Of a DNA stretch of 64,000 bases, positions 8,053 through 14,379 are shown in pieces. Source of the stretch: Kiloniellales bacterium (GTDB lineage Bacteria > Pseudomonadota > Alphaproteobacteria > Kiloniellales > JAKSBE01); the NCBI GenBank assembly GCA_030066685.1, contig JASJBF010000052.1, positions 1 through 64,000 on the forward strand, in the 5' to 3' direction. The notes beneath the pieces are model-generated. The model had not been told where the DNA came from. It searched no databases and was given only the letters and a program-made list of their open reading frames with translations. Numbering within the stretch: position 1 is the stretch's first letter; each line of letters starts with the position of its first letter. A program made the translations under genes and the position numbers.

Positions 8053-9174
<1,122 letters not shown>

Positions 9175-10047: not shown

Positions 10048-10209
10048 GGGCGTCCTCCTTGCGAAGCGGTAGATGAATAATCCTAATCTGTTGAGTTAGA
10101 TTGCCTCATCTCCTTTCCGGTTCTTTTCATAAAATCGCTTGAATATCCTGATCCGACAAACGAGTATTCATCTAGCGTAAGGTTAGTTTTGCTAATGTTG
10201 GAGCTCGTC
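10048..10209. promoter_or_regulatory. AT-rich divergent promoter region, DUF1127 operon / GcvA-like regulator
   Basis: This 160-base interval is sharply AT-rich compared with both neighbours. It contains inverted repeats AATCT..AGATT (10085-10089/10098-10102) and TTAG..CTAA (10184-10187/10193-10196), of the kind LysR-type regulators bind. No -35/-10 pair is clear enough to name. Confidence 0.5.
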
Positions 10210-11139
10210 GTGTCGCGCCGTCTGCCGCCGCTCAACGCCCTGCGCGCCTTCGAGGCCGCGGCCCGCCATCTCAGCTTCGCCAAGGCGGCGCAGGAACTGC
10301 ACGTCACCCCGGCCGCGATCAGCCACCAGATCAAGGGCCTCGAGGACTACCTTGGCGTGGCCCTGTTCCAGCGCGGCAAGCGGACGATCTGGCTGACCGA
10401 AGCCGGCGAGGCGGCCCTGCCGGACCTGCGCAGCGGATTCGACTACCTGGCCGCCGGAATCGCCCGGATCCGGGACCTGGAGACCGGCGGCGTGATCACG
10501 GTCTCGGCCGCTCCGTCCTTCGCCGCCAAGTGGCTGGTGCCCCGGATCGAGCGCTTTCACCAGACCCATCCCGACATCGACGCCCGGGTCGCGGCCTCGG
10601 TCGGGCTGGTCGATTTCGACCGCGACCAGGTCGACATCGGCATCCGCTATGGCCAGGGCCGCTATCCGGACCTCAGCGCCGAGCTCCTGCTGCACGAGGA
10701 GGTGGTGCCGGTCTGCAGCCCGGCCCTGCTGGAGGACAAGCCGCCGCTCAAGCGCCCCAAGGACCTGGAGCATTTCCCCCTGATCCACGACGATACGCCG
10801 ATGGTCGGACAGCCGGTGCCGGACTGGCGGATGTGGCTGCTGGCCGCCGGGGTGCAGAGCGTCGACTGGACCCGCGGGCCGCGCTTCAGCCCGACCTCCA
10901 TGGCGATCCAGGCCGCCCTCGACGGCCAGGGCGTGGCCCTGGTCGGCCGGGTCCTGGCGGAATCGGACCTCAGCGCCGGGCGCCTGGTCCGGCCGCTGGC
11001 CTTCGCCGTGCCCAGCGACTTCGCCTACTACATCGTCTGCCCTCAGGCCAATGCCGAGCGGCCCAAGGTCAGAGCCTTCCGGGACTGGCTGCTGGAGGAG
11101 GCCGAGCGCTATCGCCAGGAAATCCGGCAAAAGCGCTGA
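10210..11139 (+). CDS. LysR-family regulator, GcvA-like
   Basis: The 309-residue protein has an N-terminal winged helix-turn-helix starting SRRLPPLNALRAFEAAARHL, with FAKAAQELHVTPAAISHQIK as the reader helix region. The periplasmic-binding-protein-like effector domain follows (AAPSFAAKWLVPRI, DVDIGIRYGQG-type motif). This is the GcvA/AmpR subgroup. I chose GTG 10210, because GGAG lies six bases upstream and the family begins MSRRLPPLNALR; ATG 10195 would add five residues. It is divergent from the DUF1127 operon, its likely target, and 73 bases upstream of the Rieske-like gene. The effector is unknown. E. coli GcvA responds to glycine, but no glycine-cleavage gene is nearby. Confidence 0.88.
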   Translation: MSRRLPPLNALRAFEAAARHLSFAKAAQELHVTPAAISHQIKGLEDYLGVALFQRGKRTIWLTEAGEAALPDLRSGFDYLAAGIARIRDLETGGVITVSAAPSFAAKWLVPRIERFHQTHPDIDARVAASVGLVDFDRDQVDIGIRYGQGRYPDLSAELLLHEEVVPVCSPALLEDKPPLKRPKDLEHFPLIHDDTPMVGQPVPDWRMWLLAAGVQSVDWTRGPRFSPTSMAIQAALDGQGVALVGRVLAESDLSAGRLVRPLAFAVPSDFAYYIVCPQANAERPKVRAFRDWLLEEAERYRQEIRQKR

Positions 11140-11212: not shown

Positions 11213-12826
11213 ATGCAGATGGGTCTTTGGACCAAGGCGATCGCCACAGAGGAATTGAGGCAGAAGAAGCAGGCCGTCGTGGAGCTTGGCGAGCGGCAAC
11301 TGGCGCTCTTCCTGACCGAGGACGGCATCTTCGCCTGCAACAACCGCTGTCCCCAAGAAGGCCATCCGCTCAGCGAGGGTGCGGTGGACTGCGACAGTGT
11401 GCTGACCTGCAGCCAGGACAGCTGGAAGTTCGACCTCTTCACCGGTGCCAACGTCACGGGCGGCGACGCCCTGCGGGTCTACCCTGTCGAGGAGCGCGAC
11501 GGCCACGTCTACGTCGACCTGATGGATCCGCCGCTCGAGGACCAGCGGCAGACCATCCTGTTCCACCTCTGCAACGCCTTCGACGAGCACGACTTTCCGC
11601 GCATGGCGCGGGAGCTGGCCCGGCTCAGCCACCTGGAGGGCGATCCCCTGGAGGCGATGCGCGCCGCGATTGGCTGGTCATGCGATCGCCTCGAGTTCGG
11701 CCTGGGTCAGGCCTACGCCGGCGCCGCCGACTGGCTGTCGCTCTACGAGGAGCGGCCTGGCGAGCCGGAGGACCGTCTGATCTGCCTGCTCGAGGCGATG
11801 GGCCACATCGCCTACGAGGTCCGGCGCGAGAAGATCTACCCCTACTCCGCCATGGAAGAGCCCTACGACCAGGCGGTCTTCCTGCAGGCGATGGAGGACG
11901 AGGACGAGGCGGTGGCCATCGCCAACCTGCGCGGCGGTCTGGGCGAAGGCCGCAGCTTCGCCGAGTTCGAGGCCGCCCTGACCCAGGCCGCCCTGGCCCA
12001 CTACAGCGGCTTCGGCCATTCCCTGATCCACGTCCGCAAGGGCGGCGAACTGATCGCCCACCTGGGCCCGGAGATCACCACCCGCGTGATGCTGCCCCTG
12101 CTGCGGGCGATAATCTTCGCCCGGCGCGAGGACAGGCTGCCGCGCTTCGCCGGCTATCACGCCGCGCTGCAATCCTGGACCGAGGGCTTCAAGCCCAGCT
12201 TCGGCCGCTTCAAGCCGCCGAAGGTCTCGGACTACAAGGGCCTCGACGTCGACAAGGCCCTGGCCCTGACCCTGGACTACAAGAAGGCGGCGCCGGAGAA
12301 GCTCTACCTGAGCCTGCTCGGCGCCAACGCCGTCAACCTGCTGTGCTTCGACACCGACTACCAGGACCAGATCGACGGCAGCTTCGCCACCAACGTCGGC
12401 TGGCTCGACCTCACCCACGGCATCACCTTCGGCGCCGCGCTGCGCGGCCAGTGCCAGAAGTTCGCCGAGAGCTGGCCGCCCGGGCTGCTGCAGCTGGCCT
12501 GCTTCGCAGGCCGCAACGCCGGCTACCTGGACGACAAGGTGAAGCTCAAGGACTGGCTGGTCGACGACGTCGAGCACTTCTTCCAGCAGGCCCTCGACAG
12601 CCTTTTCGACCACGACCAGCCCGAATACGTCGTCTCGGCGCATCTGCTGAAGACGGTGCTCGCGGCCCGCGAGGAGGCGCGCTGGGCCCTGGCCAGCGAC
12701 GGCGAGGACACCGCCGCCCTGCTGGCGGCCGCGGTCAACCGCTTCCTCTCCTCTCCGATCAAGCGCAAGCACCTCCGCCGCACCGCCCGCCAGGCCCTGG
12801 GCTTCGCCGCCAAGGAACACGGCTAG
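11213..12826 (+). CDS. Rieske-fold protein lacking both histidine ligands, with a long helical C-terminal domain
   Basis: The protein has 537 residues. Residues ~1-105 align with a Rieske ferredoxin domain: FACNNRCPQEGHPLSEG, LTCSQDSWKFDLFTG and DALRVYPVEERDGHVYVDL. A normal cluster needs C-x-H and C-x-x-H. Here the first pair is Cys46-Pro-Gln48 and the second Cys66-Ser-Gln-Asp69, so both His ligands are replaced (Gln, Asp) while both Cys stay. Residues ~110-537 are mainly helical and contain no fold I recognise (DDKVKLKDWLVDDVEHFFQQ near the end). It starts at ATG 11213 (or 11219), just after the LysR gene. It probably does not hold an ordinary 2Fe-2S cluster; a structural or sensor role is inference. 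Confidence 0.75.
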   Translation: MQMGLWTKAIATEELRQKKQAVVELGERQLALFLTEDGIFACNNRCPQEGHPLSEGAVDCDSVLTCSQDSWKFDLFTGANVTGGDALRVYPVEERDGHVYVDLMDPPLEDQRQTILFHLCNAFDEHDFPRMARELARLSHLEGDPLEAMRAAIGWSCDRLEFGLGQAYAGAADWLSLYEERPGEPEDRLICLLEAMGHIAYEVRREKIYPYSAMEEPYDQAVFLQAMEDEDEAVAIANLRGGLGEGRSFAEFEAALTQAALAHYSGFGHSLIHVRKGGELIAHLGPEITTRVMLPLLRAIIFARREDRLPRFAGYHAALQSWTEGFKPSFGRFKPPKVSDYKGLDVDKALALTLDYKKAAPEKLYLSLLGANAVNLLCFDTDYQDQIDGSFATNVGWLDLTHGITFGAALRGQCQKFAESWPPGLLQLACFAGRNAGYLDDKVKLKDWLVDDVEHFFQQALDSLFDHDQPEYVVSAHLLKTVLAAREEARWALASDGEDTAALLAAAVNRFLSSPIKRKHLRRTARQALGFAAKEHG

Positions 12827-13173: not shown

Positions 13174-13755
13174 ATGCCCTGGGAAAAGCGGTTTGACAGC
13201 GAGGCGGTGCTCGACAAGGCCATGCGGGCCTTCTGGGCGCGCGGCTACGAGGCGACCTCGATGCAGGACCTAGTCGACTGCATGGGCATCAACCGTGGCA
13301 GCCTCTACGCCACCTTCGGCGACAAGCGCAGCCTCTTCATCAAGGCGCTGCGCCGCTACGACACCCGGGAGCGCGCGGCCTGGGTCGCGACCCTGGCGGC
13401 AGCCAAGTCGCCCCGGGAGTCGATCCTGGCCGCCTTCGACGGCGCGATTGCCGCGGTGCTCGAGCGGGGCTCGCGCGACGGCTGCCTGCTGGTCAACACG
13501 GCGCTGGAGCTTTCGCCCCACGACGAGGAGATCTCGAAGATCGTGGCCCGCGGCCTGGCCGAGATGGAAGCCTTCTTCCGCGGACGGATCGAAGCCGGCC
13601 AGCGCAGCGGCGAGATTCCAGCAAGGGTCGAGGCCGGCGAGGCCGCGCGGGCTCTGCTGGGTCTCTTCGTCGGGCTGCGGGTGCTGTCGCGTAGCCGTCC
13701 GGAGCCCGCGCTGCTCCGCTCCCTGCGCCGCCAGGCGGAGGCGCTGATCGGTTGA
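13174..13755 (+). CDS. TetR/AcrR-family transcriptional repressor
   Basis: This 193-residue TetR-family protein has an N-terminal helix-turn-helix: VLDKAMRAFWARGYEATSMQ, DLVDCMGINRGSLYATFGDK, RSLFIKAL. The 'G..R.SLYATFGDK' recognition helix is typical of the AcrR/NemR-like branch. A Cys lies in the HTH (DCMG) and another in the ligand domain (DGCLL). The ligand-binding domain is the usual length. ATG 13174 has GGAGG upstream. It heads a plus-strand unit with the AhpD-like and glutaredoxin genes; matching operators lie before this gene and before the next. It likely senses an electrophile or oxidant, which is inference from its partners. Confidence 0.9.
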   Translation: MPWEKRFDSEAVLDKAMRAFWARGYEATSMQDLVDCMGINRGSLYATFGDKRSLFIKALRRYDTRERAAWVATLAAAKSPRESILAAFDGAIAAVLERGSRDGCLLVNTALELSPHDEEISKIVARGLAEMEAFFRGRIEAGQRSGEIPARVEAGEAARALLGLFVGLRVLSRSRPEPALLRSLRRQAEALIG

Positions 13756-13777
13756 TCGACTTTTTATTTCAGCCGTT

Positions 13778-13792
13778 TGGAACGTTCAGTCA
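13778..13792. promoter_or_regulatory. TetR-type operator in front of the AhpD-like gene
   Basis: TGGAACGTTCAGTCA is the inverted near-copy of the site at 13126-13140. It lies in the 54-base gap between the regulator stop and the AhpD-like ATG, so this gene may have its own regulated promoter. The core GGAACGTTC is palindromic apart from one base. Confidence 0.65.
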
Positions 13793-13809
13793 AAACTAGG
13801 GAGGCAAAG

Positions 13810-14379
13810 ATGACCGTAGCCTATGTCGAACGCGCGCAGGCCGATGCCGTGACGAACGCCTTCTACGACAAGGCCGAAGACCGCTTCAAAGCGTTGCTCA
13901 ACATCTTCAAGGTCCTCGGCCACACCCCGGAGCTCGGGGTCGCCTTCACCGACCTGATCATGGCGATTCTGAAGGACGGCCACATCGACTGGGTCACCAA
14001 GGAGCTGCTGATCCTCAAGGCGACCCAGCGCAACGACTGCCAGTACTGCGTCGTGCAGCACGAGCGACTGTCGATGATGCTGGGCATTTCCGAGGAAAAG
14101 ATCGCCGACATCGACGGCGACAGGTACAAGACCAGCCCGCATTTCACCGAGGGTGAAAAGGCGCTCATGGACCTCACGGTGCAGATCGGCGTCGACGCCA
14201 ACCGGGTCTCCAAGGACCTCTGGGATCGGCTTCACGCGCACTTCACCGACGCGCAGATCGTCGAGGCCGCCTTCGTCATCGCGACCTACATCTTCGTCTC
14301 CAAGTTCGGCGACGCCATGGGCGTCGAGCTGGAGCCGATGTTCGACGGCGTCGAGCCCATCCTCCACATCAACCACTGA
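13810..14379 (+). CDS. AhpD-like carboxymuconolactone decarboxylase-family protein
   Basis: The 189-residue all-helical protein carries the AhpD catalytic set: Glu65 (VTKELLILKA), Cys77 and Cys80 in CQYC, and His84. The spacing between these four residues is identical to that in mycobacterial AhpD, whose Cys pair reduces alkylhydroperoxidase. It is therefore more likely a thiol peroxidase/disulfide reductase than a true decarboxylase. The ATG at 13810 has AGGGAGG 6-7 bases upstream. A glutaredoxin gene follows after 9 bases, so both are probably co-translated and may exchange thiols. It is controlled by the TetR-type regulator encoded upstream, judging from the shared operator. Confidence 0.88.
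   Translation: MTVAYVERAQADAVTNAFYDKAEDRFKALLNIFKVLGHTPELGVAFTDLIMAILKDGHIDWVTKELLILKATQRNDCQYCVVQHERLSMMLGISEEKIADIDGDRYKTSPHFTEGEKALMDLTVQIGVDANRVSKDLWDRLHAHFTDAQIVEAAFVIATYIFVSKFGDAMGVELEPMFDGVEPILHINH

Follow-up and report, generated by a model that had tools for sequence, protein, structure and literature searches.

The gene analysed here, which lies in a window of 64,000 nucleotides (the whole stretch of DNA considered), encodes a two-domain protein whose Rieske domain has lost both histidine ligands of its cluster, and it is best explained, with a probability of about 60%, as a paralogue confined to this lineage that has been drifting since its redox function was lost. It belongs to a two-domain family seen in Alphaproteobacteria, other members of which keep the complete set of Rieske ligands. 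The features on which this reading draws are located in Table 1. Regarding the start of the gene, an alternative in-frame ATG is present at 11051, and the start given is the likelier one because translation from 11051 would overlap the LysR gene. The frame is uninterrupted, with no in-frame stop, and aligns without a gap to its closest orthologue (L003) across 537 columns.

Table 1. Location of the two-domain protein gene, its domains and ligand-site codons, and of neighbouring or family-associated genes (window positions, except for the SufR-like regulator, given within its own locus).
Feature	Position	Strand	Basis or remark
LysR-type regulator, upstream	10189..11139	+	Order kept at orthologue locus; Pfam LysR_substrate 137.6 bits
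Two-domain protein gene (ligand-lost paralogue), 537 aa	11213..12826	+	Translation, Pfam, 86% identical orthologue L003
Rieske-fold domain, residues 1-108	11213..11536	+	Pfam, predicted fold
CPQEG motif (Cys46, Gln48), first ligand pair, His to Gln	11348..11362	+	Family alignment
Cys60 codon, new to window lineage, two residues before family Cys62 (Ser here)	11390..11392	+	Family alignment
CSQDSW motif (Cys66, Asp69), second ligand pair, His to Asp	11408..11425	+	Family alignment
C-terminal domain, residues 106-537, remotely questin-oxidase-like	11528..12823	+	Profile comparison, motif order
Gln166 codon, place of first invariant C-domain His	11708..11710	+	His in 81/81 others, Gln in window and L003
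His269 codon, kept	12017..12019	+	His in 81/81
His402 codon, kept	12416..12418	+	His in 80/80 with a letter there
His477-x-x-Lys480 codons, kept	12641..12652	+	His and Lys in 78/78 with letters there
TetR gene	13174-13755		First gene of the initially proposed redox module
AhpD-like CMD-family (carboxymuconolactone-decarboxylase-family) protein gene	13777-14379		After TetR gene
SufR-like regulator near intact gene (loci L077, L078, L081, L082, L083, L084, L085, L088, L090)	8363-9028 (L077)		

The N-terminal domain is a genuine Rieske domain by profile score and predicted fold. In Pfam, the protein reaches 43.5 bits with Rieske_2 (cut-off 27) and 40.8 bits with Rieske (cut-off 20.3), and an AlphaFold model of residues 1-108, built from two sequences and with a mean pLDDT of 66, has the Rieske ferredoxin 5bok as its best fold match (TM 0.80), the 50 fold-match rows shown being Rieske ferredoxins, Rieske oxygenases or nitrite reductase small subunits as judged by title or recall. 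A full-length model, likewise built from two sequences, has a mean pLDDT of 35.9 and was kept out of the fold search. The ring-hydroxylating catalytic domain of classical Rieske oxygenase alpha subunits is absent from the Pfam matches of the whole protein at E<=1. Membership of NirD (TIGR02378) was considered and rejected, the score of 50.7 bits being below the equivalog-domain cut-off of 74.65; copies with both histidines score similarly, i.e. 51.0 bits for L003 and 50.9 bits for L036. Besides, no nirB is present among the five window neighbours scanned.

While most of the Rieske fold motifs are retained, the ligand signature by which Rieske proteins are recognised (CxH and CxxH, i.e. two Cys and two His) is broken, both histidines being replaced in the contexts NNRC46-P-Q48-EGHPLSEG and LTC66-S-Q-D69-S-W-KFDLFTG. 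The initial annotation of this stretch had reported these two replacements and the retention of both ligand cysteines, which translation and family alignment bear out. In an alignment of the window protein, L003 and 81 other members, namely the second copy from the window's own genome (L002) and 80 further loci, both ligand cysteines are present in all 81 others and both ligand histidines in all 81 as well as in L003, the Gln/Asp pair occurring in the window protein alone (1/83). The first motif filter applied to the fetched loci admitted H/Q and H/D only, and no locus failed it; three loci that escaped the second motif pattern (L109, L111 and L112) show both histidines on inspection by eye.

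The closest of these relatives are the most informative. A genome of the same genus (G001) carries an orthologue (L004) that is 86% identical to the window protein, and the public record L003, from a Kiloniellales MAG, reads the same as L004, both standing for one locus. The motifs of L003 are CPHEG and CSRHNC, with both histidines present, and the gene order HPPD, DUF1127, LysR and window-type gene is common to the two loci. G002, the remaining genome of this genus (81% complete), shows no window-type copy, which leaves the copy in two of three, and none was seen outside the genus in 61 genomes of the order or 385 drawn from the class. The window's genome also has an intact paralogue (L002, on contig G000:C19), which is 46% identical and reads CPHEG/CNWHNW. 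Outside the genus, full-length rows are 38-55% identical to the window protein, the nearest one, at 55%, having normal ligands. Since the relatives, including the 86% identical orthologue, keep both histidines, their loss is specific to the window lineage. The initial annotation had suggested examining whether Gln and Asp are conserved across species and had regarded normal histidines in homologues as contrary to its reading; the pair is found in none of the 82 aligned relatives, and homologues as close as L003 carry normal histidines at both positions.

This distribution bears directly on a further proposal made at that stage, that is a cluster held by other ligands (for instance Asp or Gln beside the two Cys) or a redox sensor built on cysteines. 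Both ligand cysteines are indeed kept, Asp serves as a ligand of Fe-S clusters in some proteins, and the domain has four cysteines (42, 46, 60 and 66), of which Cys60 is new, being present in none of the 81 other members, absent from L003 and hence unique among the 83 aligned. Yet the Gln/Asp pair has no conservation behind it, and Cys60 may merely stand in for the family Cys62, which is present in 81/81 other members and is Ser in the window and changed in L003 too; four is also the usual total of cysteines in this domain (68/81 members). Such a redox role is improbable for the window protein, and a conserved Gln/Asp-ligated cluster was rejected because the pair stands in one sequence of 83. 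Because a single genome is concerned and the two codons lie only 63 bases apart, an error of sequencing or assembly could be suspected instead. However, three codons of the site differ from L003 (48, CAC to CAA; 69, CAT to GAC; 70, AAC to AGC) and stand alongside numerous ordinary differences, the frame is open, and the genome is listed as 100% complete with 2.3% contamination, on which grounds an error was rejected as scarcely credible.

Regarding the family at large, full-length matches occur in 33 of 61 genomes of the order (the window's genome, G000, included) and in at least 38 of 385 genomes drawn from the class (counting G000 and the broken copy of G221), and among 398 genomes of the phylum the C-domain profile matches at least 5, G000 included, none of which lies outside this class; the class and phylum counts are lower bounds because only three and four candidates, respectively, were scored per genome. 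The class search also gave weak partial matches over residues 7-308 in G085 and G216. Of note, in-frame stops are found in the family matches L022 (G039), L057 (G146) and L105 (G221); those of L022 and L105 interrupt the gene, reflecting either pseudogenes or assembly errors, and that of L057 may lie outside the gene. L022 was excluded from the conserved-column test and from the hhalign profile described below, L123 is the same locus as L105, L122 is incomplete, and the fragments L124 and L125 (G803, C-domain only) were excluded from scoring. The Pfam and NCBIfam scans run gave no family name for the intact two-domain architecture, and the titles and abstract openings of the literature matches listed make no mention of a Rieske-questin oxidase fusion.

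In the family tree, the window protein and L003 form one clade (support 100/100) on a long stem of 0.65, in a different part of the tree from the genus's own intact copies; the clade is an old second lineage rather than a recent duplicate, and the exact neighbour of this clade is unsure (support 89/76). Polarised against the sister sequence and the other members, the changes within the clade divide as follows: the window branch carries H48Q, H69D and N70S, the L003 branch carries N43S, N44D, R45P, W71C and F73Y, and Cys62, Asn67 and Trp68 are altered in both. The cluster site of L003 is thus itself odd, with all four ligands kept yet SDPC in place of NNRC. In that record (L003:3774-4097), the CSRHNC motif places a cysteine beside the ligand where the family has tryptophan.

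How far the constraint on the cluster site has changed can be appreciated from the nearly invariant columns, taken here as those in which at least 93% of 57 further members agree. Between the window protein and L003, the Rieske domain differs at 10 of its 35 such columns and the C-domain at 4 of its 73 (Fisher p 0.0016), and 10 of the 77 differences between the two proteins fall in those 35 Rieske columns where 5.0 would be expected at random (p 0.018). The seven control pairs, whose divergence ranges from below to above that of the window pair and two of which have L002 in common, each differ at zero or one of 35-36 Rieske columns, giving 1/246 in sum vs. 10/35 here (Fisher p 2.6e-9, a value to be taken as a guide only, the pairs being related). 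In the pair formed by the window protein and L003, the cluster site has thus lost its constraint or is now under a different one. The C-domain of this pair is somewhat looser as well, as indicated by the 4/73 nearly invariant columns changed vs. 6/517 in the controls (p 0.025). The view that the rest of the fold was too well preserved for decay does not withstand this comparison, since nearly invariant Rieske columns change far faster here than in the control pairs.

Over the whole gene, the dN/dS between window and L003 is 0.347 (bootstrap 0.241-0.492) and nearly equal in the two domains (0.341 and 0.344), compared with 0.218 (0.150-0.293) for the intact copies from the same two genomes and 0.215-0.248 for three intact-copy pairs of the genus; among the neighbours, LysR has 0.158, HPPD 0.270 (0.180-0.413) and the small DUF1127 gene 0.574. 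Purifying selection on the window gene looks weaker than on the intact copies, as these values suggest, but the intervals for the window gene, the intact pair and HPPD overlap, so that relaxed selection is suggested rather than proven. A ratio well below 1 makes some continued function of the window protein likely, and its value of 0.35 together with the intact frame indicates that a folded protein has been kept.

Such persistence could also be the mark of selected repurposing, in which a positive role unrelated to redox chemistry (for example in regulating the intact paralogue as its partner, as a pseudoenzyme that binds a ligand, or within a LysR-controlled unit) would have made the ligand losses tolerable or even favourable. 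The open frame and the similar ratio of about 0.34 in both domains are consistent with it, as are the same-strand LysR gene adjoining the window-type gene in both species and the C-domain columns, which are mostly held (only the 4/73 mentioned above being changed). Nevertheless, the window and L003 differ at the cluster site without sharing a new state, no window-type copy appears outside the genus in the order and class genomes searched, and within the genus it is present in two genomes of three, the third being the incomplete one. Repurposing is accordingly an unlikely account, and drift after loss of the redox function is preferred.

The C-terminal domain, first described as some 430 residues of unknown fold, stands as a domain but is no longer of a wholly unknown kind, given a remote similarity to questin-oxidase-like proteins (PF14027) by profile, motif order and spacing. 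At the level of single domain models the signal is absent: no Pfam family reaches its cut-off on the window C-domain, PF14027 is missing there at E<=1 and likewise from all 31 intact C-domains scanned at E<=5, and a PDB profile search with the C-domain gave a single match at E 3.6. Frankia_peptide, the most frequent match among the intact C-domains (9/31, best E 6.3e-5), was taken for chance and discarded; it scores 19.1 bits against a cut-off of 48 in the one member with a printed score. Across the family, histidines are invariant at window positions 166, 263 and 269 (81/81 each), 402 (80/80) and 477 (78/78), and a lysine at 480 (78/78), the first histidine being Gln in both the window and L003.

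PF14027 members for comparison were taken from the genome searches, five of them being rescanned and found above the cut-off; a five-row alignment has the invariants H30, H120, H248, H316 and K319. An hhalign comparison of 57 family C-domains with six PF14027 rows gave E 1.9e-4, a score of 39.9 and a probability of 47.6%; none of 100 block-shuffled profiles reached that score (maximum 29.5, mean 21.0), and the reversed profile scored 18.2. Smaller comparisons were weaker, with E 0.038 (probability 1.4%) for one sequence and E 0.0032 (10%) for five rows. The confident block, in which FTHAIT pairs with FTHAIT and HxxK with HxxK, covers the third histidine and the HxxK only, the second histidine pairs in a relaxed full-length alignment only, and the first is matched by order alone. 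The intervals from one histidine to the next are 99-103, 124-133 and 74-75 in four family members vs. 89-92, 113-128 and 67-77 in six PF14027 members. All five residues of the four-His and HxxK set thus occur in matching order in the intact family, and the window protein has H269, H402, H477 and K480 but Q166. In the reference BTG13, the metal ligand set is four His and a carboxylated Lys, and the conserved four His and Lys of the present family are presumably iron ligands by extension from it. Against the PDB, the five-row PF14027 profile finds PaD, BTG13 and AflY (E 1.6e-6 to 5.1e-4), and phmmer with one PF14027 member finds nothing at 0.01. BTG13 is termed an atypical non-heme iron dioxygenase in the titles of two references.

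The gene neighbourhoods differ between the two kinds of copies. The regulator preceding the window gene, initially described as GcvA-like, is of LysR type, and the downstream redox module announced with it corresponds to the TetR gene and the AhpD-like protein gene, perhaps a two-gene redox unit. For the intact copies, 16 loci were fetched and 15 read (L091 being excluded), with two to four neighbours each, and a regulator with conserved C-terminal cysteines lies near the intact gene in 9/15; it adjoins the gene divergently in eight and is one frame away in L088. All four of the regulators tested match the SufR model with 109-127.5 bits, below its cut-off of 178.8. Two of the loci with such a SufR-like regulator, L077 and L078, belong to the window's own genus; the window copy has a LysR gene where intact copies often have this regulator. 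The other neighbours of the intact copies are varied and point to no substrate.

The window protein can be situated with respect to several known systems. It shares the fold and most fold motifs with the Rieske-type ferredoxins of aromatic oxygenases (BphA3, CarAc and T4moC; PF00355/PF13806), but unlike them it lacks both His ligands and carries a fused domain of about 430 residues. With the intact Rieske and helical-domain family, it shares the two-domain architecture over the full length; all 81 intact members keep the two Cys, the two His and the first C-domain His, whereas the window protein is without all three of these histidines. Its C-domain resembles the questin-oxidase-like proteins (BTG13, 7y3w-y; PaD, 8z4q; AflY, 8yxs) in the order and spacing of H, H, H and HxxK, and departs from them in the fused Rieske domain, in the lack of a Pfam-level match and in the replacement of the first histidine. 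Finally, the Rieske fold is common to the nitrite reductase small subunit NirD, 3c0d and 4aiv being among the fold matches. NirD is not known to carry the cluster ligands and hence offers a precedent for a cluster-free Rieske fold.

Taken at this level, a Rieske domain joined to a C-domain with conserved four His and Lys gives the intact family the appearance of a Rieske ferredoxin-oxygenase fusion. In intact members, a [2Fe-2S] ferredoxin domain would be fused to a questin-oxidase-like domain holding a non-heme iron by the invariant four His and Lys; the cluster would pass electrons to this iron, which would activate O2 and oxidise a substrate, perhaps aromatic or quinone-like. Any catalytic activity of the family is thus a prediction from conserved residues. 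The losses of the window copy fall into two steps, the first being shared with L003 (first C-domain His to Gln, Trp68 and Cys62 being changed in both) and the later one, on the window branch alone, being that of both Rieske histidines; the intact paralogue elsewhere in the genome can supply the activity. With both histidines lost and the constraint on the site loosened, the redox-dead option put forward in the initial annotation is the likeliest state: the window protein is most likely without a Rieske cluster and does not pass on electrons, and with an iron site one ligand short as well, it would be a pseudoenzyme. More tentatively, at somewhat under even odds, the intact family may represent a second kind of Rieske oxygenase, put together independently of the classical one, in which the ferredoxin domain serves a helical domain with a four-His and Lys (possibly carboxylated) iron site in place of the classical 2-His-1-carboxylate domain, under the control of a SufR-like Fe-S sensor, the window copy being a natural pseudoenzyme that has lost residues of both metal sites stepwise.

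That a single copy within the family has recently lost its Rieske ligands is of modest to moderate interest, as a natural experiment showing which features a Rieske protein gives up first once it is freed from its function. The intact family is a better lead than the ligand-lost window copy: if its C-domain does hold a questin-oxidase-type iron site, Rieske electron delivery would there be coupled to a non-heme iron scaffold different from that of the classical Rieske oxygenases.
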